DNA from: Owenweeksia hongkongensis DSM 17368
Lineage (GTDB): Bacteria; Bacteroidota; Bacteroidia; Flavobacteriales; Schleiferiaceae
Length of the DNA: 64,000 bases
Direction: 5' to 3'
NCBI RefSeq assembly: GCF_000236705.1
Contig: NC_016599.1
Coordinates: 992,001 to 1,056,000, forward strand
Shown here: in pieces, positions 10,601 to 43,263 of the stretch
Layout: each line of letters starts with the position of its first letter
How positions within the stretch are numbered: the stretch's first letter is position 1
Program-made: the position numbers and the translations under genes
Notes under the pieces: generated by a model
Databases searched by the model: none
What the model was told of the DNA's origin: nothing
The model's input: only the letters and a program-made list of their open reading frames with translations

Positions 10601-11719
10601 TCGCTCATTGCTGGTGTTAGTGCTATCTCTAAGCTCATTTCCATTTCCATTAATGATCAATCGTGCTGATGGGCCAGCTCCGTTAATTTGACCAAGCACA
10701 AAACGCTCTTTGTAAGGACCAGAATTAGCCACCACATTTACAGTTACATCTGCGGTAATGTTTCCACAAGACAGGGCTGTAGCTAAATCAGCAAAGCTTT
10801 GATAGTTGGTAGCCGAAACAGGTGCGTTTTTATTAATAGTGTAGGTTCCGGAAAGGGTTCCTCCTTGCGTTAAAACCTGTACTGATGAAGAATAAGTGGT
10901 AACACCGCAAGTCACTCCTGCTCTGTAGTAGGTATTTACAGTAGGGTTTGCTGTTACTAGTGCCGAAGTGGCTCCTGCAATATTTGTCCAGTTTACATTG
11001 TCAATAGAAGATTGCCACTGATATGTTTGGCCCGTACCTGTGGTGTTTCCCGAAAGGGATAAATCCACATTTCCTCCAACGCAAACCAATCCTGAATTGG
11101 CAACCGCAGTACCTGCAACTGGTGGGTTGGTACATGGCCCAACCAAGCCATATGTTAATGTTCCTAAAAATCCTCGTGGTTTATTGCCTAAAGCAGACGG
11201 TAATGCGCCACCATATCCGTAGATTGTGGATCCTGTTACCCCCCCTGTTCTTAATGTAACGGGACCATGAGTAAACGCAGTTGGAGACACAGGGCTCGCA
11301 GTACCTGAATAGCGCATCCCGCCTGTAATTACTATACCTATGGGAGTATTTACAGGTACCAAAATAGGCACAAAGCTTTGAAGTGGCACAGGAGTACTGT
11401 TAATTCCACCTCCACCTGCCACAGCACAGGTTTGATTCAAAACCCAACCATTAGCTGCGGTTATTTCCAAGTTTCCAGCAGTATTTAATGGAGCTGAAGC
11501 TATTCCTCCTACCCTTACCCAAACATCGGATGAACTTACACCAGTGTTAAATACATTGGAAATACCAGTAATTTCTACCAGCGTAGTACTCTCTACTTCA
11601 AATGAAACGGCTGAAGAGCCATTATTGTCAGGGTACACCGCATGTGTATTGATGGTACCTTGACCCATCGATAAAAAACTAATTAAAGTTCCGAAGAACA
11701 AAAGAATATTCTTTTTCAT
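4616..11719 (-). CDS. Giant T9SS surface protein with three parallel beta-helix modules, Ig-like, FN3 and PKD domains
   Basis: 2367 residues, starting with a signal peptide (MKKNILLFFGTLISFLSMGQ). Approximate order: an Ig-like domain at 206-286 (YQWQSSIDNVNW); beta-helix module 1 at 290-750; a CARDB-like domain at 753-870; module 2 at 870-1328; a fibronectin III-like domain at 1330-1420; module 3 at 1430-1857; a second CARDB-like domain at 1857-1970; a region of unknown fold; a PKD domain at 2203-2276 (YSWNFGDGNTG); and a type-A T9SS sorting domain in the last 85 residues (LRVYPNPSNGVVNI, ending RLIKD). Each helix module repeats the same plan: NSGPY.E.F..G.I.G, ING.G..L, a 'FNGTDWFTIDNL'-type strand, then NN.I..GYYG.. 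turns (NNIVGGYYGI, NRIIGGYYAL, NTVVGGYYGI). Right-handed helices of this sort bind or cleave polysaccharides or act as adhesins; I see no catalytic motif. Monocistronic: terminator after, 615-base gap before. Confidence 0.9.
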   Translation of the reverse strand: MKKNILLFFGTLISFLSMGQGTINTHAVYPDNNGSSAVSFEVESTTLVEITGISNVFNTGVSSSDVWVRVGGIASAPLNTAGNLEITAANGWVLNQTCAVAGGGGINSTPVPLQSFVPILVPVNTPIGIVITGGMRYSGTASPVSPTAFTHGPVTLRTGGVTGSTIYGYGGALPSALGNKPRGFLGTLTYGLVGPCTNPPVAGTAVANSGLVCVGGNVDLSLSGNTTGTGQTYQWQSSIDNVNWTNIAGATSALVTANPTVNTYYRAGVTCGVTTYSSSVQVLTQGGTLSGTYTINKNAPVSATNYQSFADLATALSCGNITADVTVNVVANSGPYKERFVLGQINGAGPSARLIINGNGNELRDSTNTSNERTAFLLNGTDYLVLDSLNIVNKGTTYGWALQLTNGANNNIIRNCKLETSITSTSSNHCGLVMSSSLTSATTSGNSGSYNLIENNRIIGGYYALMSYATTTVGSRNVGNSLIRNKIEDAYYYSIYNSGQDSMTVIGNEISRPNRLAYGGGYGIYNSSVGNKSQFSNNWVHDMFKQATGTTTALYGIYSSASDNTPGAECLVFNNLMSDNQNNGAHYYIYNTSSDGWKYYHNTIVANSPGSTAGLTRGFYQLTLATGIEFKNNLISINRGGSGPHHAIYAGTTTSVMDIDRNAYFMANAGSGNDHYGYYTSNQSTFANWQTASSYDVNSAIGDPLFDANTLYQPTAAYFNNIGLNLQSIVSSDFGGIARGPAPDPGIWEFSPPPGPDLSIASISQLGASCGSSTNLVVRLINVGTDTVLSATLNYTVNGIPQTPILLSGVFATGLSVYDTLYNIPLTANTNTTVVATLVSIGPGVDTDPGNNVFATNVRSGYSGNLYINSLIAANDSTFTSFTSLAAALMANGVCGPIVVTVAPNSGPYNEQFMVGTITGVSSTNQVLINGNGRTLQYSAGNSAERGTVIFNGTDWFTIDNLIIKATGATYGFGVSFTNNADHNTLSNCTVLTDSVATSSNYCGVVISGSAGSATISGSCGNYNTIINNNIVGGYYGIIAYGSSTDSLNGNQFINNQVRDFYYGGIYNYYARGSMINGNEIHRPNRTGNTTFYGIYAYVNHFSKIIGNKVHDPFPLNTTTTSTAYGIYAYSFIGSAANYGILANNLIYNFNSAGTQYLFAPYITSYAKVIHNTVIADDANSTGTSASTYVIYNPGTSDRTYFQNNLTYLNRKVGTGTSYIYYQSGAVDASSIVNNNVYYAPPTFTVSTFGYYGGAAVTSFQNWKNATGFDQVSEFTRPYFVNTATGNFTPQSNVIDGFGVNFTSDVATDINNVLRTVPVDPGAIEFTGSPCTGVSGLTTSNITSSSATVSWNSNPAGVMIEWGPVGFKQASIVGTTITVPVGTSTSNITGLNGNSCYDYYITQNCTSTIPGAPPVMGPYTFCTPCLGGGLNAGTYTVGGPIGPSNFATIDSVIDVLNGCGIKGAVVFNVQAGNHIVSKTIGEIDGASGINTITFDGSATTGDTLRGSSTAVIDLDGAKHFTFKGLSIVNNTARGVWLHNNADSNTIENCYIRVSTTGTGTAMAGIVASTSATGLSAGADVDYLKVMGNTVVGGYYGIVSYGNGTTSKVKGAIIENNTLLNQYLYGVYAYYNQEISIKKNSVNGLRNTASYGFYMVYADNFYIEGNQISDAKTYGVYLSSANSGLSGVPATKSTFINNMVLSTGSGCYFTGISYLNVFHNTVEGAYGYRQFTPTSVDVRNNIFVGSSNYAFESGTAVVTPNVVNYNLYHKRGGTDLIKDGTPTYTSLALWKTALPLLNVNSVEGAPIFITPTDLHVVGSLANDAGDNTVGVLVDIDGDVRPANGSTVVDLGADEFTPLNFDIAVTAIASNPGSGSCGDALTQVDISLANYGLSSLSGIPLTAVISGSVNTTLTTTYAGPLSTLGTITLNLGPINTTGGGVYNVEVYTNLSNDQDRSNDTVTTTFTFKNTLAPIVTAAMDTFCAGAYDTLYAPIGTADNYEWKDINGVVLGTGDTLVVGPLLAADTTFTLSSVSQQYRFGPVSNSIGVAANFTDPSVQQLYFTAIQAFTLDSITVYPNANGNVNINLVDFTTNAILQTVTVPVTGVTAAGTKQRIAVGMNIPAGTYKMHGGGSTTGGLWRNSAGAVYPYTASGVASITGHSFSASGPDYYYYFYDWKITSGGCPRPDGTKILYSSSASQVPAFTSNVQGATMTGQVVDFDASSSQGATSYSWNFGDGNTGTGVMASHTYTANGSYTVTLTITGPCGTQTITSTVVVQGIGIEGNVLNSSLRVYPNPSNGVVNISFQTEASDKARVRITDMAGKELMYLVKDNINGHFEGTVDIGKLPKGVYLLEISSDNLSTQERLIKD

Positions 11720-27028: not shown

Positions 27029-28570
27029 ATGAAGAAACTGCTAATTCTGCTTGTGTTTGGACTTTCTCTAACATCAACCTTTGGTAGCCATATGGCCGGA
27101 GGTGACATTTGGTATGAATATGCCGGTGACTCCTTGTATCCACACCGATACAACGTATTTATAAAACTTTATAGAAATAGGGTAAATGCGGCTACCTTAT
27201 GCAGTGGGGGACCCTGTACTATTAACATATGTATATCCTCTAGCTGTTTTCCTAGCCAAAATGTTGTGGCAACTCTTGTTCCATATATACCTCAATCGGG
27301 CAGTGACACTACAAGTGGTTCCGTAAACGGCTCTATTCTTACGCCAGAATTCAATGATTGTTCTGACCCCATGAGCGCTTCCCCTGCTACTGAACAGTAT
27401 CTCTTTAAAGGACAGGTTGATCTTGGTGGAATATGTTCTGATTATGAATTCGGATATTCATTGTGTTGTCGAAACGTTTCTGATAATTTGGTAAATAGCA
27501 CATCATTAGACTTTAAACTTATAGCTAAGCTCAACAACACATTAGGCCACAATAGTAGCCCAAAGTTTATTACTCCGGGATCAAAATCACTTTGTATAAA
27601 TACTGCTTACTCATGGCCTCAAACTGCCACTGAGCCCGATGGGGACAGCGTTTATTATGCTTTTCGAACACCACTGGATGGAACAGGATGTGGTACTTTA
27701 CCGGAATACTGCGCTTTTGCCCCAGGCTTTAATGAACAAAATCCCATGACCACTTTTGGTCCTATGATTTTAAATCCCATTACTGGAGATTTAAATTTTA
27801 CCCCAGCCGCAGTAGAAGTAGTAACTTTTAAAGTAAATGCCTTCGAGTACCGATTTACAAGTACGGGTCAGCCAATTTTAATTGGAGAGTCTTCGCGAGA
27901 TGTACAGCTACCTATCACAGGAAACTGTGGAACACCACCGCAAGAATGGCTTGCCATAAGCAAGGATACTAACGCTGCTCCAGTTTTAAAATGTAATGAT
28001 AGCAGCGTCACCGTTTTTCTGGATCAATTAATTTACACTAATTCTATCGCCACCGATGGCACCGATTTTAGTTTACTAAATAGTGTGGGTGATATACTTC
28101 CAATAATAAGTGCTGAAGCAAAATCCCTAAATGGCCAAAGTTTAAAAACCAATCAAATAAAACTTACACTCCATCAGCCCATTATGTATAATGATATACT
28201 GCAATTAAAAATCAGGCTAGGATCAGATTTAAACACCTTAATGAGTACCTGCGGATATGAGATTGATGAGGGTGATAGTTTGATACTTAAAGTTGAAGAT
28301 TGTACAACCTCAATTTCTCTAGACGAGCTTAATTTCAACTATTTCAGCACATACCCAAACCCTACAAATGACTTAATCAATTTTCAATACACCAAGTCAG
28401 CAAAGCATGTCTCATTAGAGGTACTGGATTTCACAGGTAGAATAGTGTTGCAAAACAACTTTATCAAACTACCCGAAAATATTAGTGTAAAACATCTTCC
28501 GCAAGGAATCTACTTTATACGCATTTCCACCAAAGAGTGGACAGAAACGAAGCAATTTGAAAAACTATAA
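27029..28570 (+). CDS. T9SS-secreted SHxAGG-domain protein (A1)
   Basis: 513 residues from ATG 27029 (TTG 27011 also in frame). Signal peptide MKKLLILLVFGLSLTSTFG, then SHMAGGDIWYEYAGD directly at the mature N-terminus. The SHxxGG...Y start is known from N-terminal regions of many large gliding-motility-associated Bacteroidota proteins (from memory). Cysteine-rich stretch CSGGPCTINICISSSCFPS, repeated ICSDYEF and YSLCCRN segments, EPDGDSVYYAF, ESSRDVQLPI, then a T9SS sorting domain from about residue 440 (YFSTYPNPTNDLINF, ending KQFEKL). First of five consecutive cargo genes; the large B1 gene starts 9 bases after its stop. Function unknown. Confidence 0.8.
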   Translation: MKKLLILLVFGLSLTSTFGSHMAGGDIWYEYAGDSLYPHRYNVFIKLYRNRVNAATLCSGGPCTINICISSSCFPSQNVVATLVPYIPQSGSDTTSGSVNGSILTPEFNDCSDPMSASPATEQYLFKGQVDLGGICSDYEFGYSLCCRNVSDNLVNSTSLDFKLIAKLNNTLGHNSSPKFITPGSKSLCINTAYSWPQTATEPDGDSVYYAFRTPLDGTGCGTLPEYCAFAPGFNEQNPMTTFGPMILNPITGDLNFTPAAVEVVTFKVNAFEYRFTSTGQPILIGESSRDVQLPITGNCGTPPQEWLAISKDTNAAPVLKCNDSSVTVFLDQLIYTNSIATDGTDFSLLNSVGDILPIISAEAKSLNGQSLKTNQIKLTLHQPIMYNDILQLKIRLGSDLNTLMSTCGYEIDEGDSLILKVEDCTTSISLDELNFNYFSTYPNPTNDLINFQYTKSAKHVSLEVLDFTGRIVLQNNFIKLPENISVKHLPQGIYFIRISTKEWTETKQFEKL

Positions 28571-28579
28571 GTGCTCCAA

Positions 28580-31500
28580 ATGAAAAACTTAATAGCTACA
28601 GTACTCCTAATGGGTTGTACAAGTATGTTCGGGCAATCAGTACTCTTTCACGAAAATTTTGACTCACCCTCTGGCCCTGATAGCGTGAGCGCCTCTATTG
28701 TTATTGCAGGTAATAATCCAACTCTTTGGAATGATACTAACTTCGTGTTTTCGTCTGTCGGTAACTCCTATCACCTTAAAGGCTCGCAAAATAATTCTGC
28801 TGTGAGCTTCGAAACTCCAGCTTTTTCCACTATTGGCCAAAAGCATGTTTATCTAAATTTTAATCAAATAGCAAAAATTTGGATAACCAATAGAGTGGAA
28901 ATTGAAGTATCAACCGACAATGGTACTACATGGTCAACATTGTCGGGTGCAAATGGCTATTATGGTCAATCTTTAAATTTCAGCAGTCTAGGTTTTTTTA
29001 ACTCCGTTTCTTATCCTACCATTTGGGGTTCTTCTTTGAGTCATTTTTCGGGGCCGACTTCTATTCCGAATAATCAATGGTGGCAGCATGAGATTTTTGA
29101 TATTTCCAGCTTCACCCTGCATCCTGTTACTGGTCAAGGATATTCCCAGGTCAAAGTAAGATTTAAAGGTACTTTCCAGTCTTATATTCCTAATATGCCC
29201 TTTACTTATGCAAGCGGCTGGTATGTTGATGACATTGAAGTTATAGGAACTCAATGCGAGATATTTAAACCTACTATAAAAGTGGCTACTTCAGGCACCG
29301 TTATTCCACAGTGTAACAACAAAATTATGCATGGTGGATTTGTAAATCCTACCTTAATTAGTCAACAAAAAGTATGGGAGGTAAATGATAATATTGCCAT
29401 TGCCTCTGTAAAGTTGGAGCAAATAAAAAATGGCGTTGTTCAACCTAATATCCCCCTTTCAAAAATAGGATCCACACAATACTACAGCTATACTTTTGCT
29501 AACTACACACCTTCAGACACTGTACAGTGGCGTATTGAAGCACTTGACACTTGTGGCAACGCGGCTTATTTTCCTGACACAGGATTTTACAAGTTTTACT
29601 TTATTCCTCATAATACCAAGTGTATAACAGGCAACTGTAATTCAGAACATGCGTACATTAAAAAATTCCCATGGAGTCAAAACTTTGAAAGCTCTGCGTG
29701 GGAAGTAGGTTTTGGATCTTCAGGCTTGAATGTGCGTGGAAGCATTCCTGAAAGTCAAGGTTACGAGGCTATTCCAGCTGATAGTATTTCTTACTATGGA
29801 TGGTCAGTGAGACGTTACGCCACACCCAGCACCAATACCGGTCCAAGTGAAGATCATACCACTGGCTACGGCAAGTACTTGTATTCTGAATTTCAAGGTC
29901 AATCCGGAGGAAATAACACAATATTCATACTACCATGTATTGATTTAAGTAATAATACACAGAACTTAAATCTGTCTTATTACTACCACATGTTTGGTGC
30001 TGATATATCTAGGCTTAATGTCCATATAGATTCCACAAGTAGTACTTCTGCCAACTGGCACCTTGCAAAATCTATTCAAAACGAGCAACAACTCTCTTCT
30101 ACCGACCCTTGGCAAAAAGCTATAATTAACTTAGGTGTTTATACTGGTAAGATCATTAAAATTCGATTTGTAGCAATTTCAAATGCTTCTACTTTTCAAC
30201 GCGCAAATATAGCCATTGATGATTTGAAGATTTCAGAAAACCCAGCTGTTGATATTGAGGTAAACTCTATTGTAACCCCTACCAATTTAGCATGTCTGGG
30301 AACTACAAACATACCGGTAGAGGTTCAGATTACAAATTTAAGCTCTGATAGTCTTTATAAAATACCCTTGGCTTACCAGCTTGATAACAATGCGGTAGAA
30401 TACGATACACTTTTCTTAACAGATGCTGCAACTGGAGTCTCCCATAATTTCACTTTTTCACAACTACTCACTTACACCACAAGCGCAAGTCATACTTTAA
30501 AAGTATGGAGTACGGTAGCCTTAGATACTACCAAGTCAAATGATACTGTACAGCTGTCTTTGCTTGATAACAACTTTGAAGCTATTACCTCATTTCCTCA
30601 CGTTTTAAATTTTGAAAATAGCACCTATGCAGGAAGCGGAATTGGTTCATTAAATTCTTCAAACTGGATACTAAACCCAGATGGCAATTCCACTGAAAAA
30701 TGGAGAATAGGAAAAGCTCCTTTTACCAATAATAACATTGGCCCGATGAATGTGGCTGGAAAAAACCAACAGTGCTTAGTTTATCAAAGTCAGTATAGTT
30801 CTCATTCAAATTATGCCACTATTCAATCACAATGTATTGATCTTAATAATCTTACGAATCCAGTCTTAAACTTTCTTTATCATAAAAATAACGCTTATGA
30901 CTTTAGTATTCTTGTAAAAGAAGTTGGCACTTCATCATGGGTTGATATTACACCTACCCTTAGTGATGTTTTGCCAAAAGAGCATATGCATGGTGCTGTA
31001 GTTCCCCTTGGGGCTTATGTGGGCAAAATGATTCAAATAAGTATTAGAGCAAGAAACACTCTTAACGCACCGAGTAACTTTATTGCCATTGACAACGTAG
31101 TAATTCGTGAACAACCCTCTATTGATCTGGAGCTTAGTAAACTTTCGTTTCAAACCACCCAAGCTGGTGTAAATACTATCCCTTCTATATCTATATTTTA
31201 TAATGACTGGAATCATCAAGTTTCTCAATCCTATAGCAAGAGACTTAATGTAGCTCTATATGATAAGTGCGATCCCTCCGCTCCCATAATTTATGGCTGG
31301 AGTGATGTCGATACAAATCCATTACCTACCGCCTCAGTCAACGGACAATTTACTTACAACAATTTAGTATTTCAAAGCCCTGTGCCTGCCGGAAACTATA
31401 GAGCGCGATTTTGGATTGGTGCGGTGGGAGATCAAGGGCCTTTTAACGATACCTTGTATGTGGATTTTTCTTGTTCAGAACTAAGAAGCTTACCTATTCA

Positions 31501-33217
31501 CGAAGATTTTGAGTCATGTGATGACTACCTAAACTCATACGGAAAGATGCGCCAATGGGAAATTGGTAGCCCCACAAAAACTCAAATAGACTCCGCATAT
31601 GGAGGTGATTACTGCATGGTAACAAATGCTGATACCAATAGTCTCCTCGTTGGCAGCTACAATATTTTTGAGTTAGAGCCCTTCACAGGCCTGGATTCCT
31701 TCTATGGGGTGGAGCTCAGCTTTTGGCAAAATTTTGATTTTGGATCAACAAATAGTGGATATGGAGTGGTTCAGCTCTTTGATGGTCAGAATTGGATCAA
31801 TCTTACCAACTTGCATCAAGGAGGAACTAATTGGAACAATTTTATCTCCTCCACTACAGACCCTACACTGAACTACGGTTTTGTAGGTAGCTCCCATGGA
31901 TGGACTCACTCAAGTGTACCCCTTCCACACACAAACAATGGAGGCCCCTATATTCTTCGTTTTCTTACTACAGCAAATAATGTAGAAGGCTGGGCTATAG
32001 ATGATCTTGAAATAAGTATTGCCCCTCAACACTCGAGTAGACCAAATAGTGCAAAATTCAATTCAGGTTTACCAAAATCAGGTTACAATAGTCTTTTTGT
32101 AAATATTACGAATAGTGGTGCTCATCCATTGACTACTTTTAACGTGCATGCGGAAAGTAATGGTATCAACTTAATTACAGAAAGTGTTACCCTACCAACT
32201 CCACTACAGGCTGGGAAATCCACCAATGTTGCGCTCACGCAGGCTTTACTTTTAGACACTACCCTGCAGGATTTACTTATTTACACATCTCTTCCAAACA
32301 ACAATACAGACGCTAAACCCTTGGATGATTCTTTGTATATCAAACTATACTTTATGACTAGCGTAAATAACTTACCATCTTGTATAGATTTAGAGACATC
32401 ACCTTACTTTGTCCCTATTGATATTGCTTCCAATACTATTGATACCAGTTGGATTAATGGATCTCCCGGCAAGAGTGTTATTACCACAGCAAAGAGCGGT
32501 CAAAACACCTGGTTCACTGGCACAAACCACTATGCAAAGCTTTTGGACAGTTACCTGTATTCGCCCATTTACTCTATAAAAGGTGGATTGTGCTATCGAC
32601 TTAGTTTTTGGCACCAGTATGAAACCGAATATAGCTTTGATGGAGGATTAGTTGAATTCACCCTAGATTCAGGATCTACCTGGCAAACACTAGGCTCCTA
32701 TTGGAGCACTGATTCCCTTTGGTATAATACACCAGCTATTCAATCTTTAGATGCATTTAAGCCTGGCTGGAGTGGATCATCTAATGGCTGGGTAAAGGCA
32801 GAAAAAAGCCTTCAAGTATTTTGGGATGGAAAAGTCCAATTCCGTTTCAGATTTGCATCCAATGCTAGTATGAGTGGAGAAGGCTGGGCTATTGATGATA
32901 TTTGTATGGAGCTTATTAACTCAGGTTGTCAAACTATTGGACAGATAGAACCTGTAACCATTAGAAAGGATATCTCTGTATACCCATCTCCTGCCAGTAA
33001 TCATATTATGGTAAAACTGCCGTATGAATCAAGCAAAAAAAGCTGGACATGTATTATCTATAACCTCCAAGGGCAAGCAATTTTAACTAAGCAATTCTCC
33101 CAAAATGACAGTGAAGTTTATAAGATAAATGTGGCACATCTACCCACGGGGTTATACAACATCAAATTATCAAACAATCAGGGAATTGAACAAATTGAAA
33201 GATTTGTAAAAAAATAA
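28580..33217 (+). CDS. Large T9SS protein with five MAM/jelly-roll-like domains (B1)
   Basis: 1545 residues from ATG 28580 (GTG 28571 is in frame but less likely). Signal peptide MKNLIATVLLMGCTSMFGQ. Five jelly-roll domains of the MAM/'choice-of-anchor J' sort each close with a xxIDD/xVDDI strand: about 20-223 (GWYVDDIEVIG), 365-552 (IAIDDLKIS; with the MAM-like core GPSEDHTTGYGKYLYSE), 672-845 (IAIDNVVIRE), 970-1146 (WAIDDLEIS) and 1267-1446 (WAIDDICMEL). CARDB-like spacers (AYQLDN.AVEYDTLFL) lie between. The sorting domain starts near 1466 with YPSPASN, not the usual YPNP, and ends ERFVKK. Likely cell-surface adhesion or glycan binding. Co-transcribed with A1; A2 follows 42 bases later. Confidence 0.82.
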   Translation: MKNLIATVLLMGCTSMFGQSVLFHENFDSPSGPDSVSASIVIAGNNPTLWNDTNFVFSSVGNSYHLKGSQNNSAVSFETPAFSTIGQKHVYLNFNQIAKIWITNRVEIEVSTDNGTTWSTLSGANGYYGQSLNFSSLGFFNSVSYPTIWGSSLSHFSGPTSIPNNQWWQHEIFDISSFTLHPVTGQGYSQVKVRFKGTFQSYIPNMPFTYASGWYVDDIEVIGTQCEIFKPTIKVATSGTVIPQCNNKIMHGGFVNPTLISQQKVWEVNDNIAIASVKLEQIKNGVVQPNIPLSKIGSTQYYSYTFANYTPSDTVQWRIEALDTCGNAAYFPDTGFYKFYFIPHNTKCITGNCNSEHAYIKKFPWSQNFESSAWEVGFGSSGLNVRGSIPESQGYEAIPADSISYYGWSVRRYATPSTNTGPSEDHTTGYGKYLYSEFQGQSGGNNTIFILPCIDLSNNTQNLNLSYYYHMFGADISRLNVHIDSTSSTSANWHLAKSIQNEQQLSSTDPWQKAIINLGVYTGKIIKIRFVAISNASTFQRANIAIDDLKISENPAVDIEVNSIVTPTNLACLGTTNIPVEVQITNLSSDSLYKIPLAYQLDNNAVEYDTLFLTDAATGVSHNFTFSQLLTYTTSASHTLKVWSTVALDTTKSNDTVQLSLLDNNFEAITSFPHVLNFENSTYAGSGIGSLNSSNWILNPDGNSTEKWRIGKAPFTNNNIGPMNVAGKNQQCLVYQSQYSSHSNYATIQSQCIDLNNLTNPVLNFLYHKNNAYDFSILVKEVGTSSWVDITPTLSDVLPKEHMHGAVVPLGAYVGKMIQISIRARNTLNAPSNFIAIDNVVIREQPSIDLELSKLSFQTTQAGVNTIPSISIFYNDWNHQVSQSYSKRLNVALYDKCDPSAPIIYGWSDVDTNPLPTASVNGQFTYNNLVFQSPVPAGNYRARFWIGAVGDQGPFNDTLYVDFSCSELRSLPIHEDFESCDDYLNSYGKMRQWEIGSPTKTQIDSAYGGDYCMVTNADTNSLLVGSYNIFELEPFTGLDSFYGVELSFWQNFDFGSTNSGYGVVQLFDGQNWINLTNLHQGGTNWNNFISSTTDPTLNYGFVGSSHGWTHSSVPLPHTNNGGPYILRFLTTANNVEGWAIDDLEISIAPQHSSRPNSAKFNSGLPKSGYNSLFVNITNSGAHPLTTFNVHAESNGINLITESVTLPTPLQAGKSTNVALTQALLLDTTLQDLLIYTSLPNNNTDAKPLDDSLYIKLYFMTSVNNLPSCIDLETSPYFVPIDIASNTIDTSWINGSPGKSVITTAKSGQNTWFTGTNHYAKLLDSYLYSPIYSIKGGLCYRLSFWHQYETEYSFDGGLVEFTLDSGSTWQTLGSYWSTDSLWYNTPAIQSLDAFKPGWSGSSNGWVKAEKSLQVFWDGKVQFRFRFASNASMSGEGWAIDDICMELINSGCQTIGQIEPVTIRKDISVYPSPASNHIMVKLPYESSKKSWTCIIYNLQGQAILTKQFSQNDSEVYKINVAHLPTGLYNIKLSNNQGIEQIERFVKK

Positions 33218-33259
33218 CTAAAACGAGTTTCAATTTAATTAACCTCTCAAAATTACAGT

Positions 33260-34807
33260 ATGAAAAAATTACTACTTACAATTTTTATCCTTTCTCTTTT
33301 CGCAACTCAGGCCTCTGCCTCACACGCAGCCGGTGGATCTATTTGGTACGAATACATCGGTGACTCAACAGGGATACCCTTCCACTATAAGGTTAATTTG
33401 GAAATTTTGAGAAGAAATGAATCAGGATCGGCAAGCTTAGGTGCAACCCTTCAATTAAATTTAAACTCATCCTGTTATAGTAGTCAGACTATAAGTGTAC
33501 AAAGAGTTGCGCCCCCTTCCCATCTGGATGCAGGTGATGGTGGGTTTCTTCCTGAGCCAAAAAGCAATTGCTCTAATGCGGATATTACTGATCCAAATTG
33601 GATTAATATTTCAATTCATCGATATCAAGCTTATGTTTTACTCCCTGGCAAATGTTCTGATTTTGTGTTTTCCTACTCACTATGTTGCTTAAACAATAAC
33701 ATAACCAACCTTCAAAACCCTGCATCTAATAACATATATTTAGACTCCCGCTTAAATAATACGATAGGGCCAAACACATCTCCCAAATTTGAAATTTCAC
33801 CGGTTTTGTCTTATTGCCTAAACCAACCTGCTTCTAGTTATCATTCGGCCGTAGAACCTGATGGAGATTCGCTATTCTATACATTAGCGCACCCGTGGAC
33901 TGCAGCCAATACCCCGATAGCTTTTGACAGTGCTTACAGTCGTACTCAACCTATATCTACTTTAAATGGTGTTTATTTTGATAGCATATATGGTGTAATG
34001 AGCTTTATACCAAATACTATCGAGAATGATGTAGTAAAAATAAAAGTTCATGAGTATAGAATGGACACTGCATTTCAGGCTCGAATTTTCGTAGGGGTAA
34101 CTAGTCGTCAGGTTCAATATCAAATAGTTTCTACGTGTGACACGGCTAAATTCAGTTGGTCGTTCTCCAAGGATTCTATAGTAATTGACGCCTCAATTGA
34201 CCCCAACTGTTATGATTCTATCGTAAAGTTTAAAACCGGTTTTGCATTTTTAAAGTCAAGCTTAGCGGCAGATGGAAGTGACTTTACGCTAATGGATGTG
34301 GATGCAGGTAATGTGCTCATTCCTGTAGTCAGTGCTACTACCAATGATAAGAGCTCTTCACTATTTGCAGATGAAGTTTGGTTGCAGCTCAATCAGCCTA
34401 TTTACCATGATGGTAAATTTACGATAACGTCAAAGGTAGGGAGTGACACCAACACCATTCTCAATATTTGCGGTACCGCCATTCCGGCTAATGATTCCGT
34501 ATCATTTAATGTTAGCAATTGTCAATCTAATTTTACCATAAATGAGCACAAGGCTAGCTCCATAAAGCTATACCCCTCGCCTGCTAGCGACTATATAATG
34601 ATAGAGCTACCTTTGGGTGAAACTTTGAATCACTGGAATTATACCATCTTTAATATACATGGCCAACAAGTCCTGAATAATCGCTTTGAAAAAAATAAAA
34701 GTAGAGGTCAGAAGGTAAATATCAATTCTCTGGACGCTGGGCTCTACACCATTAAGCTAAGTAGCTCTTCTGGTGAAGTAAGAGTAAGTAAATTTTTGAA
34801 AAAATAA
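33260..34807 (+). CDS. T9SS-secreted SHxAGG-domain protein (A2)
   Basis: 515 residues: signal peptide MKKLLLTIFILSLFATQASA, then SHAAGGSIWYEYIGDS. It shares the family landmarks with A1 and A3 (CSDFVFSYSLCC, VEPDGDSLFYTL, TSRQVQYQI, AADGSDFTLMD, GSDTNTILNICG), but is more divergent and lacks the A1/A3 CPS..C cluster. The sorting domain (about 437-515) reads LYPSPASDYIMIELPLGETL and resembles that of B1 and especially B2 (LYPSPTYHSLTVELPLSQTL), not those of A1/A3, so its C-terminus may be a recombinant. A strong terminator follows, ending the A1-B1-A2 unit. Confidence 0.8.
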   Translation: MKKLLLTIFILSLFATQASASHAAGGSIWYEYIGDSTGIPFHYKVNLEILRRNESGSASLGATLQLNLNSSCYSSQTISVQRVAPPSHLDAGDGGFLPEPKSNCSNADITDPNWINISIHRYQAYVLLPGKCSDFVFSYSLCCLNNNITNLQNPASNNIYLDSRLNNTIGPNTSPKFEISPVLSYCLNQPASSYHSAVEPDGDSLFYTLAHPWTAANTPIAFDSAYSRTQPISTLNGVYFDSIYGVMSFIPNTIENDVVKIKVHEYRMDTAFQARIFVGVTSRQVQYQIVSTCDTAKFSWSFSKDSIVIDASIDPNCYDSIVKFKTGFAFLKSSLAADGSDFTLMDVDAGNVLIPVVSATTNDKSSSLFADEVWLQLNQPIYHDGKFTITSKVGSDTNTILNICGTAIPANDSVSFNVSNCQSNFTINEHKASSIKLYPSPASDYIMIELPLGETLNHWNYTIFNIHGQQVLNNRFEKNKSRGQKVNINSLDAGLYTIKLSSSSGEVRVSKFLKK

Positions 34808-34829
34808 TTTCAATTGAACCACTAACTCC

Positions 34830-34875
34830 AAATAGCGCAGGATGTATGATATACACACTGCGCTATTTGATTTTT
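34830..34875 (+). terminator. Terminator between A2 and A3
   Basis: Perfect 11-bp stem AAATAGCGCAG (34830-34840) and CTGCGCTATTT (34858-34868), then GATTTTT. It divides the cluster into A1-B1-A2 and A3-B2 transcription units. Confidence 0.88.
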
Positions 34876-34910
34876 AAAATCACACAACTCATTAACTATA
34901 CAAATGCATT

Positions 34911-36464
34911 ATGAAAAAGTATTTACACGTCCTCCTTTTCTCTGTCATTTCCCTCACCTCTATGCAGGCTAGTCACTTAGCCGGTGGCGATATTTGGTAT
35001 GAATACATTGGTACAGCAAGCAACCCGCATAGATATAAAGTAAATCTCGCTTTATATAGGGATGAAACAGGCGTGCCTATGTGTCCATCATTTCCATGTG
35101 TCAAGATCGTGTGTATTACTTCTAGTTGTTTTCCCGAAATGTCGATTTCACTGTCTTTTGATCCAATTACTTTAGCACCTAATAGTGATACCCTGGTTGG
35201 GTCCAGAGTTGGCAGCATCATTACGCCAAGTCAATTGAGCTGTCTCAGTCCTGCTGGCGTTTTCTTTTTTCACAAAACTGAACTTTATTACTATAGTGCC
35301 GAAGTAGATCTGCCAGGCATTTGCTCAGACTTTAACTTTTCATTTTCTGAAGTGGCACGAAATCAGTGCGACAATTTGCAAGGGGCATTAGACTTTTATA
35401 TTGAAGCTGGTTTGGATAATAGTCTTGGAAATAATAGTAGTCCTACTTTTTTGTCACCTGCTGTAAAGACATTTTGTGCAGGTAAAGAATTTACATGGCA
35501 CCAATTGGCTAGTGAGCCAGATGGTGATAGCTTATATTACTCACTAGACATTCCTTTAGCTGGAAACTGTGGAGGTGCTTACTCTCCCATAGCTTACACT
35601 CCCGGATATCATCAATCTCAGCCTATTACCACCGCTCCTGGGGCATTTGCTTTTGACTATAAAACTGGTACAATAACTTTTACGGGGTCTCAGCAAGAAG
35701 TAATCACGTTTAAGATAACTGTAGAAGAGTTTCGATTGAACTCTGCAACCAATAGCTTTTATAAAATAGGACAAACATCCAGAGATGTACAGCTGCCAAT
35801 ATTAGCATCTTCATATTGCACAGCATCTCTCTATCATGTACTTTATTCGTCAAATGCTTCTATAGATAGTATTCCCTATTCTACATGCCAGGACAGCTCA
35901 ATCATTGTAAAATTTTACAATCCTATTTTAACCTCAACGGTAGCTGCAGATGGTAGTGATTTTGGATTGACAAACAGCTTAGGACAATTGATTCCAATCA
36001 AAGGAGCATCACCTGTATTAAGAGGTAAAAACAATCTTGAGTGCCGGGAGGTTGAGGTCTTTCTGCACCAGCCACTATCTTATAATGACACCCTCATGCT
36101 CACCGTGAGAAAGGGTTCTGATTTAAACACTCTAGAGACATCATGTGGTTTTGAAATAAATGAAGGAGATAGTTTATTTCTAAAAGTGGACGGCTGCCAA
36201 GGATGGGTTTCTACAGCAGAAACCAAAATGATAGGATTTTCAGTATATCCAAATCCAGCAAATGATTTCCTAAAAATTGAATGTCCGAATCCCGCGATGG
36301 CAATAAATATTAATGTGCTGGACCTAAGCGGAAAAATTCTAATTAACCTTTCCTCTTCAGATGTTCCTGACCACTTAGATATAAGTCCGCTTCCTCAAGG
36401 TTTTTATGCGCTTCAGTTGCAAACTGACGAAGGTATCGAGGTAATCAAATTTGAAAAACGCTAA
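34911..36464 (+). CDS. T9SS-secreted SHxAGG-domain protein (A3)
   Basis: 517 residues: signal peptide MKKYLHVLLFSVISLTSMQA, then SHLAGGDIWYEYIGTA. Closest to A1: both have HRYxVxxxLYR, a CPS/GPC..I.CI.SSCFP cysteine cluster, SEPDGDSLYYSL, GQTSRDVQLPI, AADGSDFGL and GSDLNTLETSCGFEINEGDS, almost identical to the A1 stretch GSDLNTLMSTCGYEIDEGDS. The sorting domain starts YPNPANDFLKIECP and ends VIKFEKR, again A1-like. It starts a new transcript after the A2 terminator and is followed 17 bases later by B2, repeating the A-B order of A1-B1. Confidence 0.8.
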   Translation: MKKYLHVLLFSVISLTSMQASHLAGGDIWYEYIGTASNPHRYKVNLALYRDETGVPMCPSFPCVKIVCITSSCFPEMSISLSFDPITLAPNSDTLVGSRVGSIITPSQLSCLSPAGVFFFHKTELYYYSAEVDLPGICSDFNFSFSEVARNQCDNLQGALDFYIEAGLDNSLGNNSSPTFLSPAVKTFCAGKEFTWHQLASEPDGDSLYYSLDIPLAGNCGGAYSPIAYTPGYHQSQPITTAPGAFAFDYKTGTITFTGSQQEVITFKITVEEFRLNSATNSFYKIGQTSRDVQLPILASSYCTASLYHVLYSSNASIDSIPYSTCQDSSIIVKFYNPILTSTVAADGSDFGLTNSLGQLIPIKGASPVLRGKNNLECREVEVFLHQPLSYNDTLMLTVRKGSDLNTLETSCGFEINEGDSLFLKVDGCQGWVSTAETKMIGFSVYPNPANDFLKIECPNPAMAININVLDLSGKILINLSSSDVPDHLDISPLPQGFYALQLQTDEGIEVIKFEKR

Positions 36465-36481
36465 GCTATAATATCCATCAC

Positions 36482-39400
36482 ATGAAAAAGACTTTCATAA
36501 CCGTACTTGCGTTGCTATTTGGTGCACTGAACGCACAAACCCTGCTGTTTCATGAAAATTTTGATCAGCCCTCAGGACCAGATAGCGTTACCGTCTCAAC
36601 CCTATCTGGGAGTCCTACTACTACATGGAATGATACCAATTCTCTTTATACCTCATCAGGCCATTCTTTCCATATTAAAGGTTCTGCCAACAATTCAGAA
36701 GTTGTTTTTCAAACACAGCCTTTCTCTACGGTAGGGCAAAATCACGTTTACCTTCAGTTTGACCACATTGTTAAACTTTTCTTTGCTAATAATGGAAGCA
36801 TAGAAGTGTCCGTTGACAACGGAGCTAATTGGAATAATGTGATTTATGGAAATTCATACCTAGGAAGCTCAATAAATATTCCTCCTTATAATAGCTTTTC
36901 GAGTGTTTCCTATCTTGATTGGAATGCTTTGGATTTTACTGGCCCCAATTCAATCCCTAATAATCAATGGTGGAAAGAGGAACTATTTGACCTAACCAAT
37001 TTGGTAGTTTCTCCTACTGGCTTTTCACAGGTTATTATAAGATTTAGAGCTGATTTTTCCATAGGTGTACCTCCACAAAATACATTTCTTAGTGGCTGGT
37101 ACGTAGATGACATACGGGTATTGGGTTCAAGCTGCGAGATGATACCCCCAAGCATTGATTCTATTAGCAGTGTTACGAATTTTTGTGATTTTCAAAGCTT
37201 GGAGGGTCTACAACATAATGCAACCACATTTTCGCATTCGCACCAGGTTTCTGCACAGGATAATAATCAAATCGATTCATTAAGATTGGTTGAAATTATA
37301 AATGATACACTTATCAGATACACTAATATGCCCTTAGCTTCTTATCCATCGAATAGATATTTAGCAACATTTAGCGGCTATAATAACTTTGATACTATAA
37401 AGTGGAAAATGGAAGCTTTTGACATCTGTGGAAACAGCTCTTACTTCCCGGACACGGGTTATTATAAGTTTTACTTTGAGCAATCATTTCCAAAATGCGC
37501 TACAGGGTTTTGCAATGCTGGTCATAACTTCATCAATTCCTTTCCTTGGACTCAGGATTTTGAAGACAGTCTTTGGATTGAAGGAACAGGCACATCTGGA
37601 TCATCGGTCAGAGGTAACTTCCCTGAGGAACTCTCCTATTCAGTTGCCCCCATCGAAAATCAACTGTCGGGTTGGTCAATAAGAAGAAATAGTACTCCCG
37701 CCACTTTAAGCGGCCCCAATGGGGATCATACAACCGGTGGTGGAAAATATATTTATTCCGAATATCAGAATAAAACTAATCAGGCAAACACAATTTTCAC
37801 TCTTCCCTGCATTGATCTTACTGATTCTGTAGCTAGATATTTCTCATTTTATTATCACATGTATGGTGCTGACATAAATAGGCTAGCCTTACTTGTCGAC
37901 TCCTCTGCATCTCCAACCGAAGTTTGGCACCAGCCACTAATAATTTGGGGCGAACAACAAATCTCATCTTCAGCTCCTTGGAAAAAAGCATTTATAGACC
38001 TTTCGCCTTATAAGGGTAAAATAATCAGACTTCGATTTGCATCCATCATCAATCCCAATACGCATCATTATGGAAACATTGCCATTGACGATTTAGAAAT
38101 ACAAGATGCTTACCAGTATGATTTAAGTGTAGCTCAATTAAATTCACCAAATACAGATGACCTAGCTTGCTTTGGAACAAGTAATATTCCGGTAACTATA
38201 AATTTGGCAAACCTTGGTGTAGGATCCTTATCAAGTGTAGCACTTGCTTATCAGCTCGATAATGGCCCGGTAGTGTTTGATACCATTGATGCCAGTACTT
38301 TATCACTAGGTGAAGATTCAATTTTTACCTTTTCAACACCACTTAGCCTTTCGCCAAGTTCAAGCCACACCCTTAAGGTATGGTCAGATCTTTTGGGAGA
38401 CCAAAGAACTTCCAATGATACCGTACAATTAGACATCCCTGTGTTGCAGCTTTCCGCCATCAATACTTTCCCCTATATTCTCCACTTTGACAACAGTATT
38501 GCCGTAACAGGCCAGCCTGCCAACTTAAATTCTCCGCATTGGACTATTTCTAGTAATGACTCTGCCTTCTTTTGGGAAATAAATTCTGGATATTTTACCG
38601 ATGATATTTTTGCGCCAAGCAATGGTTTTGGTGTCGAGGGAAACTGTTTGGTATTTAGATCAAGAGTAGGAAGACCTGGGCAGCTTAAGTCTAGTTTAGA
38701 ATCTCAATGTATTGACCTTAGCAGCTTGAGCAATCCTATTCTAAATTTAGATTATTTCACCTCCTATGGCCAGAGCTTAAGCATTTATGCTAGTGAGTAC
38801 GGTCAGAGCTCCTGGACCTTAATTAGTCCCTATATTCAAAATACACCTTTACAAAGCAACTTGCTCGGTCTCAAAGTTTCACTAGCAGCATACGCGGGAA
38901 AAGTGATTCAATTAAAAATTGAGGTAAATAACCCTCCGCAAAATTATATGGCGGTATTGGACAACATTACCATACGGGAACAACCTACGAAGGATCTAGC
39001 TCTTACCATGGTTGATTTAGTACAGGTAGATGAAGGCACAAACACATACCCTTCAATAGCTATAAACTTTAGCAACTGGAATGACACCAGCTCTACTACC
39101 AATTTTCCAAAGGTGCTACATGTGGCGCTCATCAATAAATGTGATCCCACTCTTCCTGTTATTTATGGACAAAGTGACACGAGTTACAATTTTAATAGTG
39201 GACAAAACACTGGTGCAATAGTCAATAGTTTATCCTTTCAAAGCACGGTGCCAGCTGGAGATTACCGTGCAAAGTTTTGGCTGGAAACACCTGGTGACCT
39301 AAGCCCCGAAAATGACACAATTTATCAAGACTTGGTTTCACTCGGCTCAATAAGTCTTCCATATTTTAATGATTTTGAAAACTGCTATAATGAAGTATCT

Positions 39401-41089
39401 CCATACGGTAGAATGAAGCAGTGGGAAGTAGCCACTCCTCAAAAAAACAAGTTGGATTCGGCATTAAAAGGAACAAGTTGCATAGTAACCAACGCAGACA
39501 CTAACGCTCTCAATCATAATGCATATAATAGCTATTTCGAACTGCCTACATTTTCCGGCCTAGATACATTGTATAATGTACGTCTTGAGTTTTGGCAATA
39601 TTTTGATTTTAGTGTTGACAATTCCAACTTTGGGGCGGTAGAAATTTATGATGGTCAGAATTGGGCTCAGCTTACCAACGCAGGTTTATATGGTGTTAAT
39701 TGGAAATCTTATATCTCAAGCACCTCCAACAGTAATTACCCAAAAGGGTTTACCGGAAACTCTAATGGGTGGATTCGATCTTCTTACCCCTTGGATGAGT
39801 TTAATACTCCTGGGCCTAAAAAGCTTCGTTTTGTAACATCAGCAAGCAAAGTATTTGGTTGGGCAATAGATAGCATCGCTATATATGTTCCTAGTCAAAA
39901 TTCAGGTTCCCCTCTTAATCTTGAGTTTACCAACTTAATACCTAAGCAAGGGGCTAATGATGGAAGTGTTCAAATTTCTAATACTGCAGAGGCGCCTCTA
40001 AGTCAGGTTGAGGTTAGTATAGCCACCAGTTCTAGTTCAGTTGTTACAGAAAATTTTAGCCTAAACCCACCCTTAAAAAAAGGGCAGTCGCGCTGGCTTG
40101 TTTTGAGTAATGCCATACAGCTTGATACAAGTATCACTGAATTGATAATTTATACATCAAACCCGAATAATAGAAAGGATGACATCAACAATGATGACAC
40201 CCTTATCATTCCTATTTCTGTTATATCTAATTTTAATGATACACTGCCTCTATGTTTTGATTTTGAAAGTAGCCAGTATTTTGCTCCACTGAATGCCTCC
40301 ACCGGAATTATAAATACTAGCTGGGAAAAGGGTGTACCGTCTAAAACTATTTTTAATAGCCCCCATCAAGGAAGTAATGCGTGGTTTACCTCAGGAAATG
40401 AATACCAGCCACTTTTAAACACCTACCTCTATACTCCCGTATTTGAGGTAACGGGACAGCAGTGCTACACACTTAGCTTTTGGCACCAATACGATACAGA
40501 ATTAAATTATGATGGTTGCCAGGTAGAGCTAAGTCTGGACTCAGGTATTACATGGCAAACTTTAGGTAAATATTGGAGTACAGATACCGCTTGGTACAAT
40601 ACCCAAGCAATTCAGTCTCTTGATGGGGTAAAGCCAGGGTGGAGTGGCTCTTCTAATGGATGGAAAAAGGCACAAAACGATTTTAAAGTTTTCTGGGATA
40701 CTTCCATGCAGTTTAGATTCAGGTTTGCATCCAATGCGAGCAACCACGGTGAGGGTTGGATCATCGATGACCTATGCTTAGAATTAAGTACAGGGAGTTG
40801 TGAAACAGTAGGGCAAGAAGAATTGCAAAGTATGAGCGGTACTTTATCACTATACCCTTCACCTACCTACCATTCACTTACGGTAGAGCTACCACTAAGC
40901 CAAACATTATCCAATTATACCTATCAGATTTACAACCTCCAGGGTCAGATAGTTTTGGATGGTGAATTTGAAAACAATAGGAAAGGTGGACAGTCTATCA
41001 TTGTTGAAACCTTGGCAAAGGGTTTATATACTATCAGAATAACAAGTGAGGCAAAAACTACTTATTCAGCCAAGTTTATGAAGAATTAG
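36482..41089 (+). CDS. Large T9SS protein with five MAM/jelly-roll-like domains (B2)
   Basis: 1535 residues, a full-length paralogue of B1: the first mature residues are TLLFHENFDQPSGPDS against VLFHENFDSPSGPDS in B1. Signal peptide MKKTFITVLALLFGALNAQ. Five jelly-roll domains close at GWYVDDIRVLG (about 217), IAIDDLEIQ (542; core GPNGDHTTGGGKYIYSE), AVLDNITIRE (833), WAIDSIAIYV (about 1136) and WIIDDLCLEL (1435). The fourth domain changes the usual IDD to IDS. The sorting domain has LYPSPTYHSL and ends AKFMKN. In the last jelly-roll the run KPGWSGSSNGW is identical in B1 and B2. Likely surface-exposed and co-transcribed with A3; followed by a strong terminator. Confidence 0.82.
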   Translation: MKKTFITVLALLFGALNAQTLLFHENFDQPSGPDSVTVSTLSGSPTTTWNDTNSLYTSSGHSFHIKGSANNSEVVFQTQPFSTVGQNHVYLQFDHIVKLFFANNGSIEVSVDNGANWNNVIYGNSYLGSSINIPPYNSFSSVSYLDWNALDFTGPNSIPNNQWWKEELFDLTNLVVSPTGFSQVIIRFRADFSIGVPPQNTFLSGWYVDDIRVLGSSCEMIPPSIDSISSVTNFCDFQSLEGLQHNATTFSHSHQVSAQDNNQIDSLRLVEIINDTLIRYTNMPLASYPSNRYLATFSGYNNFDTIKWKMEAFDICGNSSYFPDTGYYKFYFEQSFPKCATGFCNAGHNFINSFPWTQDFEDSLWIEGTGTSGSSVRGNFPEELSYSVAPIENQLSGWSIRRNSTPATLSGPNGDHTTGGGKYIYSEYQNKTNQANTIFTLPCIDLTDSVARYFSFYYHMYGADINRLALLVDSSASPTEVWHQPLIIWGEQQISSSAPWKKAFIDLSPYKGKIIRLRFASIINPNTHHYGNIAIDDLEIQDAYQYDLSVAQLNSPNTDDLACFGTSNIPVTINLANLGVGSLSSVALAYQLDNGPVVFDTIDASTLSLGEDSIFTFSTPLSLSPSSSHTLKVWSDLLGDQRTSNDTVQLDIPVLQLSAINTFPYILHFDNSIAVTGQPANLNSPHWTISSNDSAFFWEINSGYFTDDIFAPSNGFGVEGNCLVFRSRVGRPGQLKSSLESQCIDLSSLSNPILNLDYFTSYGQSLSIYASEYGQSSWTLISPYIQNTPLQSNLLGLKVSLAAYAGKVIQLKIEVNNPPQNYMAVLDNITIREQPTKDLALTMVDLVQVDEGTNTYPSIAINFSNWNDTSSTTNFPKVLHVALINKCDPTLPVIYGQSDTSYNFNSGQNTGAIVNSLSFQSTVPAGDYRAKFWLETPGDLSPENDTIYQDLVSLGSISLPYFNDFENCYNEVSPYGRMKQWEVATPQKNKLDSALKGTSCIVTNADTNALNHNAYNSYFELPTFSGLDTLYNVRLEFWQYFDFSVDNSNFGAVEIYDGQNWAQLTNAGLYGVNWKSYISSTSNSNYPKGFTGNSNGWIRSSYPLDEFNTPGPKKLRFVTSASKVFGWAIDSIAIYVPSQNSGSPLNLEFTNLIPKQGANDGSVQISNTAEAPLSQVEVSIATSSSSVVTENFSLNPPLKKGQSRWLVLSNAIQLDTSITELIIYTSNPNNRKDDINNDDTLIIPISVISNFNDTLPLCFDFESSQYFAPLNASTGIINTSWEKGVPSKTIFNSPHQGSNAWFTSGNEYQPLLNTYLYTPVFEVTGQQCYTLSFWHQYDTELNYDGCQVELSLDSGITWQTLGKYWSTDTAWYNTQAIQSLDGVKPGWSGSSNGWKKAQNDFKVFWDTSMQFRFRFASNASNHGEGWIIDDLCLELSTGSCETVGQEELQSMSGTLSLYPSPTYHSLTVELPLSQTLSNYTYQIYNLQGQIVLDGEFENNRKGGQSIIVETLAKGLYTIRITSEAKTTYSAKFMKN

Positions 41090-41108
41090 GCTGGATATTG
41101 ACTTTATC

Positions 41109-41141
41109 AAAAAAGGAGAACCAATGTGGTTCTCCTTTTTT
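41109..41141 (+). terminator. Terminator after B2
   Basis: Perfect 14-bp stem AAAAAAGGAGAACC (41109-41122), loop AATGT, GGTTCTCCTTTTTT (41128-41141). Confidence 0.92.
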
Positions 41142-41180
41142 GGTTTGGTGTAAACCTATTGAAGGACGGGACATTGAAAC

Positions 41181-41213
41181 AAAAAAAAAGCCCTGAATTT
41201 CTTCAGGGCTTTT
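41181..41213 (-). terminator. Terminator of the cold-shock gene
   Basis: Perfect 12-bp stem AAAAGCCCTGAA (41186-41197), loop TTTC, TTCAGGGCTTTT (41202-41213); on the minus strand the stem runs into an uninterrupted T tract. Confidence 0.9.
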
Positions 41214-41819: not shown

Positions 41820-42221
41820 TTAAGCCACCTCCATTAAGATATGCTCCATTTCTTTGTAGGAAATAGGTTTTACTCTAAATTTACTGATTTCCGAATAATC
41901 GAGTGCCCGTTCTCTATCGCGGTAATCAATACTGGATGTAACCAAAAAAAGATCAAGTTCCTTTTTTATTAGCGGTTTAATAGTTAAAAACTCCTCAAGG
42001 AAATCCCAACCGTTCATTCTTGGCATCTTAATATCCAACAGTATTATATCTGGGATTTCAGTCTGGTTATCCAGATTATCTTTAATGTAATTAATTGCAG
42101 CTAAACCATCATCAAAGCAACTTAGCCTATCAAAGTTTTGCTTTAATTCAAGTGTCTTCTTAATAGTAAATTGATAAATTTTATCGTCATCAATTATACA
42201 GAGGTGCTTCTTCGAGTTCAT
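41820..42221 (-). CDS. Single-domain response regulator, second copy
   Basis: 133 residues, a lone receiver. Acidic pocket DDD at 11-13, phosphoacceptor D63 in LLDIKMP, switch region in LVTSSIDY, conserved Lys K118 in RVKPI. It is paralogous to the protein at 1509-1913: same length, same D63/K118 positions, shared IYQFT near the N-terminus and MxGWxFLEEF after the phosphoacceptor. Its start lies inside the kinase gene with a 32-base overlap, so the two are translationally coupled and very likely partners. No output domain. Confidence 0.93.
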   Translation of the reverse strand: MNSKKHLCIIDDDKIYQFTIKKTLELKQNFDRLSCFDDGLAAINYIKDNLDNQTEIPDIILLDIKMPRMNGWDFLEEFLTIKPLIKKELDLFLVTSSIDYRDRERALDYSEISKFRVKPISYKEMEHILMEVA

Positions 42222-43263
42222 TTTGCTTAAAATTTAAGGTTACGGTGGTACCTATTCCTTCTTGACTTTTCAGGCTTATCGCACCCCCGATTGATAGCAG
42301 CCTGTTTTTTACCTGAAATAATCCAATACCACGTGAGTCTGGACGATTATGAAAGGTTTGAAACAAGCCGAATAAATGCTGCTCATTTTCAACCACATCA
42401 AAACCTAATCCGTTGTCTTTAACCTCTATTATTCTATCTCCATTTTTGCGAGAGCAAGTTATTACAATTTTTGGTGTTTCATCTTCTTTACGGTACTTCA
42501 GGCTGTTTGAAACCACCTGTTTCAAAATCATCTCAAACGCTCCCTTTGGTACCTTCCAATCTGAATGATCTTGAATATCAATAACAACCCTGGCCTGAGT
42601 TTGAGATATTTCCTCTTCAAAATTCTCTAATATTGAGCAAATCAAGGGTTGTAGCGATGATGCAGAATGTGACCTGCGCTTAAGTTTGGGATTTATAATT
42701 ACTCCCATTTCATCAATTATATCCAGTGTTTTAGCATTTGATTTTTTCAGGGCATCCATAAATTCTTCCAACTCTTCTTTATCAGCTACGCCTCCATCAA
42801 AAATTGAAAGCAAATAGGCAATATTTGAAACAGGACCTCTTAAATCATGCGAGATTATTGCCGCTATGTTATCCAATTCACCATCCGTCTTAGCTGATTC
42901 TTTTTCAGCTTTGGTGGGTTCTTGCTTCTTAAAAAACTCCATCAAAACACCTCCTTCATCATTAGCTTGTTTAAGTTCTACCTCATGAAACAATAACTCT
43001 TCTCTATTGTATAAATATGAATTAAAACTGGCCGCACCATTTACTAAAAACTCTTTCCAGGCAGTGTCTAAGGCTTTTAAGTCTTTATTCCAAAATGAAA
43101 GGTTACGAATAGAAACAGGCCTTGAAGTGTCTATTTCCTCCTGACAGAGTTGATTTTTAAAAGTGCTATTGACAGCTACAACGTTTCCTGATTTATCAAG
43201 TAAGCATAGAGCTAAATGCTTACTTTCAAACAGTACTTTTTGAAGTGTATTGTTTGTGTTCAA
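42190..43263 (-). CDS. Soluble sensor histidine kinase, second copy
   Basis: 357 residues, no membrane segment. A degenerate PAS-like sensor is at about 1-115 (ALCLLDKSGNVVAVNSTF). The H-box is AAIISHDLRGPVSNIAYLL with H139. The ATPase domain has N253 in VVSNSLKYRKED, G1 DNGLGFD (D283) and G2 RGIGLFQ. The C-terminal tail (QNELEEAPLYN) is encoded in the overlap with the receiver gene. Similar design to the kinase at 2754-3869, but with a different sensor and a 23-residue shorter N-terminal part. Probably senses a cytoplasmic or redox signal; unproven. Confidence 0.92.
   Translation of the reverse strand: MNTNNTLQKVLFESKHLALCLLDKSGNVVAVNSTFKNQLCQEEIDTSRPVSIRNLSFWNKDLKALDTAWKEFLVNGAASFNSYLYNREELLFHEVELKQANDEGGVLMEFFKKQEPTKAEKESAKTDGELDNIAAIISHDLRGPVSNIAYLLSIFDGGVADKEELEEFMDALKKSNAKTLDIIDEMGVIINPKLKRRSHSASSLQPLICSILENFEEEISQTQARVVIDIQDHSDWKVPKGAFEMILKQVVSNSLKYRKEDETPKIVITCSRKNGDRIIEVKDNGLGFDVVENEQHLFGLFQTFHNRPDSRGIGLFQVKNRLLSIGGAISLKSQEGIGTTVTLNFKQNELEEAPLYN

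Follow-up and report, generated by a model that had tools for sequence, protein, structure and literature searches.

Do the short and the long predicted surface proteins that stand in alternation in the chromosome of Owenweeksia hongkongensis DSM 17368 (GCF_000236705.1) belong together, and if so, what might they do? The species is marine, motile and non-flagellated (PMC3570807). The window analysed here comprises 64,000 nt (NC_016599.1, positions 992,001-1,056,000), and coordinates given without a locus name refer to it. It contains a block, A1-B1-A2-hairpin-A3-B2, of five + strand genes in succession. As a preliminary description of this DNA had stated, the open reading frame (ORF) list shows zero unrelated genes interspersed between them. 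A1 (27029-28570, 513 aa), A2 (33260-34807, 515 aa) and A3 (34911-36464, 517 aa) are SHxxGG proteins of predicted surface location, whereas B1 (28580-33217, 1545 aa) and its paralogue B2 (36482-41089, 1535 aa) are long, adhesin-like proteins; each of the five ends in a sorting domain of the type IX secretion system (T9SS). Our results support a linked and duplicated A-B pair, which a second genus also has; of the new points, a mosaic of heads and tails among the A proteins is the most interesting.

Linkage and duplication of the A and B genes

All five known members of the B1/B2 clade, distributed over four genomes and two genera, lie directly behind an A gene. A and B are separated by 9 and 17 bp in O. 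hongkongensis, 12 bp in G003, 12 bp in G002 and ~30 bp in G060, the last value depending on the choice of start codon. Between 1 and 3 A genes stand directly upstream of each B gene. In G003 the order is A-A-[cyclophilin-like gene on the opposite strand]-A-B-A, and the cassette occupies the same chromosomal place as in O. hongkongensis, upstream of the same dehydrogenase gene. G002 has the order A-A-A-B and G060, which belongs to the second genus, A-A-B, both among different neighbours. The same order at five junctions in differing contexts supports conserved A-B adjacency, for which the preliminary description had proposed a check. No other A-B neighbourhood was found in the family by comparing the listed coordinates of A-like and B-like genes. 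In the closest relative, G001, the contig ends at the cassette site, so occupancy there cannot be read.

The B1/B2 clade is separated with 100/100 support from a related protein, B3 (L044:6382-11298, 1638 aa). B3 is a MAM/jelly-roll T9SS protein that resembles B in length (about 1600 aa) and domain make-up and shares about 30% identity with it. It differs from B in this clade separation and in its fixed locus between genes for a FAH-family hydrolase and clpB, without an adjoining A gene. This placement recurs in most family genomes looked at and suggests a core surface role. The refuting case named in the preliminary description, that A and B usually stand apart, gave a mixed outcome: it applies to B3, whereas 5/5 known genes of the B1/B2 clade are found together with A. 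The B profile at E ≤1e-100 matched in 82 of the 88 family genomes and, in a draw of 298 genomes from the order, in none outside the family; at 1e-60, O. hongkongensis itself was the sole match in a draw of 396 genomes from the phylum. G018 has a more distant B-like fragment, which lacks an upstream A gene and groups on the B3 side. In G049, a member of another family, three tandem B3-like proteins follow a FAH-family hydrolase (L089:4818-19901). At L127:10001-11421 a 225-aa ORF matches B in its first jelly roll alone (38%) and is followed by an ORF with a sorting-domain-like tail, with no A gene nearby; this pair may represent a truncated form or a frameshift.

Phylogenetic trees were in agreement with the earlier proposal that an A/B pair had been duplicated. 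B1 and B2 are sisters relative to the G003 and G002 genes (100/99), A1 and A3 are sisters relative to their relatives in two trees (95/93 and 99/99), and the A and B trees share the topology (Owenweeksia pair),(G003,G002). These groupings support a block that appears to have been duplicated as a pair in the Owenweeksia lineage. The duplication seems to be old, because the copies are about 45% identical and have no long near-identical DNA; two repeats of 58 and 49 nt (73-74%) are the only long ones. For the same lack of near-identical DNA between copies, we rejected a recent duplication and gene conversion. A foreign island was also rejected, the G+C content of the block (38.8%) being no different from that of the window (38.9%).

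Heads and sorting domains of the A proteins

Matches to PF18962 (E 1e-10 to 2e-12) and to TIGR04183 above cut-off identified a Type A T9SS sorting domain in 5/5 proteins, as expected from the preliminary description. The shared motif SHxAGGxIWYEY reported there was likewise seen in the alignment of A1, A2 and A3, where it comes after a signal-peptide-like start. The N-termini, judged by eye and from the alignment, appear to have a Lys plus hydrophobic start and an A-S-H junction. PorU, the T9SS component searched for, is encoded in the O. hongkongensis genome (NF033707, 1269 bits vs a cut-off of 420). No match to TIGR04131/CHU_C above threshold was obtained in the cassette A proteins, a sub-threshold CHU_C match being present in A2 only. 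No SprF/PorP-like gene was noticed beside the cassette, although no search was aimed at one.

A1 and A3 are 41-42% identical and A1 and A2 34%. No Pfam or NCBIfam model covers the N-terminal part of A. The AlphaFold model of A3 (mean pLDDT 81) gave one good match to a solved structure, that of its sorting domain to the C-terminal domain (CTD) of NucA (8glk_D, TM 0.87). Fold assignment of the head was dropped, the Protein Data Bank (PDB) matches being mostly serial immunoglobulin-like (Ig-like) proteins with TM 0.11-0.20 by query length. The small stand-alone SHxxGG form, which the preliminary description did not know in combination with a five-MAM partner, is in itself common: the O. hongkongensis genome encodes at least 10 further proteins of SHxxGG type, among them several short ones that are stand-alone or tandem, and A-like proteins occur in 80 of the 88 family genomes. 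Many of the latter are 740-840 aa long and stand next to lepA in arrays of 2-4, which accC flanks on the opposite side in several; 15 genomes were sampled for these arrays, and lepA was visible in most. In the two genomes tested, O. hongkongensis and G003, the lepA-locus SHxxGG proteins (L041:6100-10872 and L192:8943-13859) have a Type B sorting domain, TIGR04131/CHU_C. The literature search returned no paper on SHxxGG and no role for SHxxGG proteins or the lepA array.

The view of A1, A2 and A3 as three equivalent copies had to be abandoned, since A2 has another head type and a B-like sorting domain. Heads (residues 20-297) were typed within genus g1 as T1, comprising A1, A3, A1 of G003 and the A genes of G002, or T2, comprising A2, A2 of G003 and others. 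The lepA locus likewise has heads of both types, with T1 preceding T2 in O. hongkongensis and G003. As a family-wide feature the distinction was rejected; beyond the genus both head profiles score near-equally in most proteins. In the head tree, the T2 heads from both loci join (100/99), and a topology uniting the short A proteins in one clade is rejected (approximately unbiased (AU) test, p 1.6e-8). The Ig-like region after the head gives the opposite tree: the long lepA-type proteins are split off from all 11 short A proteins of genus g1 (100/100), and here it is the T2 clade that is rejected (AU p 1e-4). All groups were named after the trees were seen, but such naming hardly accounts for two opposed, well-supported trees. 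Because the two trees are opposed, heads or tails have been exchanged between the cassette and the lepA loci.

The sorting domain of A2 (34568-34792, +) is 39-40% identical to those of B1/B2 vs 26-28% to those of A1/A3, and it groups with B1/B2 in a CTD tree of 86 columns (89/90). For the A gene that follows B in G003, the nearest sorting domain is that of its own B (42%, 100/98). These similarities point to repeated exchange of sorting domains between B and its downstream A neighbour. In G002, the sorting domains of the three tandem A genes (L082:11541-16326) are 67-75% identical vs 44-60% for the cores, which suggests exchange among these genes as well. In Flavobacterium johnsoniae, Type A CTDs use PorV and lead to static attachment or release, those of Type B rely on SprF/PorP-like shuttles, and a CTD swap alters the destination of the cargo, which follows CTD type (PMC12618676). 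PorP-like proteins have been proposed as anchors of Type B cargo (PMC9143113). Since Type A as well as Type B tails carry the same head types and CTD type sets the destination, a single cell probably displays the same SHxxGG heads on two kinds of anchor.

Architecture of the B proteins and signals around the genes

B1 and B2 had been described as full-length paralogues with five jelly rolls, and this description stood: they are 45% identical across their full length, four jelly rolls were read from an AlphaFold model and the fifth was located via Pfam. In the model of B2 residues 1-1193 (mean pLDDT 76.5), jelly rolls and Ig-like domains alternate according to our reading: jelly roll 1 (JR1) 20-228, Ig 240-336, JR2 350-543, Ig 548-652, JR3 655-835, Ig 838-956, JR4 960-1136 and Ig from 1140. 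JR5 (annotated at 40244-40789, +; Pfam match at residues 1293-1435) and the sorting domain were taken from Pfam. The four predicted Ig-like spacers were absent from the preliminary description, and the layout of B1 was transferred from the B2 model. MAM matches in B1 and B2 comprise PF00629 at 68 and 60 bits and PF20773 (InhA-like MAM) above cut-off in 2-3 stretches. Against the PDB, the best matches of the B2 model were reelin fragments, and one domain matched a MAM domain (8yt7, TM 0.70). Reelin family membership was rejected, since Reelin_subrepeat-B remained below cut-off in both proteins and no EGF-like domain was found in the Pfam scan or the model, which has Ig-like spacers instead. A literature search found no paper combining type IX secretion with the MAM domain. 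Two further multi-MAM proteins of 1728 and 2512 aa are encoded adjacently elsewhere in the genome (L045:1540-14372).

Among the domains of the A-linked B proteins, JR5 far exceeds all others in conservation (32% invariant) and contains 13 linked-specific residues vs ≤4 in any other B domain. For these reasons JR5 is the best candidate for contact with A or with a ligand.

The terminator that had been placed between A2 and A3 corresponds to a real hairpin (34829-34869, +) with a perfect 12-bp outer stem, -24.2 kcal/mol and a z of -7.3 vs shuffled sequences, and the T-run ATTTTTAAAA comes after it; a simple terminator scan overlooked it because of its large loop. It probably separates A1-B1-A2 from A3-B2. 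Two further hairpins lie 3' of B2: a strong 18-bp hairpin (41106-41144, +), the probable terminator of the second unit, and a 12-bp terminator-like hairpin (41186-41213, listed with strand "."), which the scan reports on the - strand and which probably marks the end of the cassette. The hairpin between A2 and A3 together with the two after B2 makes two transcription units likely, one with a T1-head gene, B and a T2-head gene and one with a T1-head gene and B. A sigma-70 scan gave a result no different from chance, and the Bacteroidota-type promoter pattern occurred once, within B1. Directly behind the cassette lies a histidine kinase and response regulator pair (41820-43263, -), a possible regulator of the cassette. 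In G001, a kinase homologue (40%) adjoins the same dehydrogenase gene, where the contig stops. Elsewhere in the window, a 2367-aa Type A T9SS cargo protein (4616-11719, -) contains a right-handed beta-helix and PKD domains.

Proposed function and known systems

Surface adhesion is our best guess for the function of the cassette. We put forward, with about even confidence, that it is a T9SS surface-adhesin cassette in which A and B work jointly in adhesion and whose heads are exchanged with the lepA array. A would be a short piece made of an SHxxGG head and an Ig-like domain, and B a long rod of jelly-roll (MAM/reelin-like) and Ig-like domains in turn. By analogy with known families, the five proteins would be exported via SprA with the PorV shuttle, their sorting domains would be cleaved by PorU, and the proteins would be statically attached on the outer surface or released. 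As a guess, the A-B pair would jointly adhere to particles, polysaccharide or other cells; JR5 of B might provide the main contact, with the SHxxGG head of A as a capping or ligand-specificity subunit. Duplication of the A-B block took place in the Owenweeksia lineage, and its A genes have swapped heads with the family-wide SHxxGG array (Type B/CHU_C) beside lepA.

Several observations weigh against this proposal. The cassette is rare, being present in 4 of 88 family genomes; that of G002 has no T2 head, so that A2 is not obligatory. No carbohydrate-binding site was identified. A physical two-part A-B structure is a candidate arrangement. On the side of the mosaic, post hoc group naming weakens the AU p-values and the CTD tree has few columns. 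The likeness between the A2 and B sorting domains need not mean shared targeting, since PorV recognises Type A CTDs through their fold, not their sequence (PMC12618676).

The mosaic could also be the very reason for the tandem arrangement. A and B would then be independently exposed proteins that form no complex, and their placement would mainly serve recombination of heads and sorting domains, varying the surface against phages or grazers. The mosaic heads and tails, the CTD exchange between neighbours, the similar tails and divergent cores of the G002 A genes and the many SHxxGG paralogues in the genome would fit such a reservoir. We nevertheless consider it rather unlikely, given that A strictly precedes B, at a tiny distance, in four genomes and that near-identical DNA tracts are absent from the block, which means that exchange was not recent. 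The linkage itself could trace back to a single event in which two ordinary T9SS cargo genes landed side by side and were inherited with no functional link; O. hongkongensis and G003 share the place, and the related B3 works without an adjoining A. This appears quite improbable to us, because the linkage is retained among the different neighbours of G002 and G060 and both genes of the block were duplicated together.

The repeating multi-domain rod of the B model and the one to three A genes always upstream at short distance would also suit a filament, with B forming the outer fibre or sheath and the A proteins acting as its assembly or capping factors. Every A, however, has its own surface sorting domain and the head kind of larger, adhesin-like Type B proteins, which is not suggestive of a periplasmic or catalytic assembly role, and no fibre fold was matched; we regard a filament as very improbable. 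A further, unlikely variant of joint action would make the T1 and T2 heads partner subunits on two platforms, namely the lepA array (Type B, SprF/PorP-shuttled and possibly mobile) and the B cassette (Type A, PorV/PorU, static). In the cassette they would bind the B rod as a heteromeric adhesive T1-B-T2 assembly, and recombination would keep the heads of the two platforms compatible.

Much of what marine Bacteroidota display on their outer surface is T9SS cargo. The conserved, duplicated pair with its natural head and tail exchange provides a defined gene set for asking whether SHxxGG proteins act in pairs, and the mosaic is the natural counterpart of published experiments in which swapped CTDs decide whether display is mobile or static.

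Among known systems, the cassette resembles Type A T9SS cargo (TIGR04183/PF18962) such as RemA and AmyB of F. johnsoniae: the Type A sorting domain is present in all five proteins, whose starts look signal-peptide-like by eye, and PorU is encoded in the genome. That group is, however, not known to include a conserved pairing of a small SHxxGG protein with a five-jelly-roll rod. Type B cargo (TIGR04131/CHU_C, the SprB group adhesins) is represented by the lepA-locus SHxxGG proteins, which bear the same head types on Type B tails, whereas the cassette proteins have Type A tails. With animal reelin repeats and MAM adhesion proteins, B shares jelly-roll/MAM folds and the serial domain arrangement. 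The resemblance is limited to single domains and their serial order; the global TM-scores are low (0.11-0.2), and it is one of likeness, not membership.

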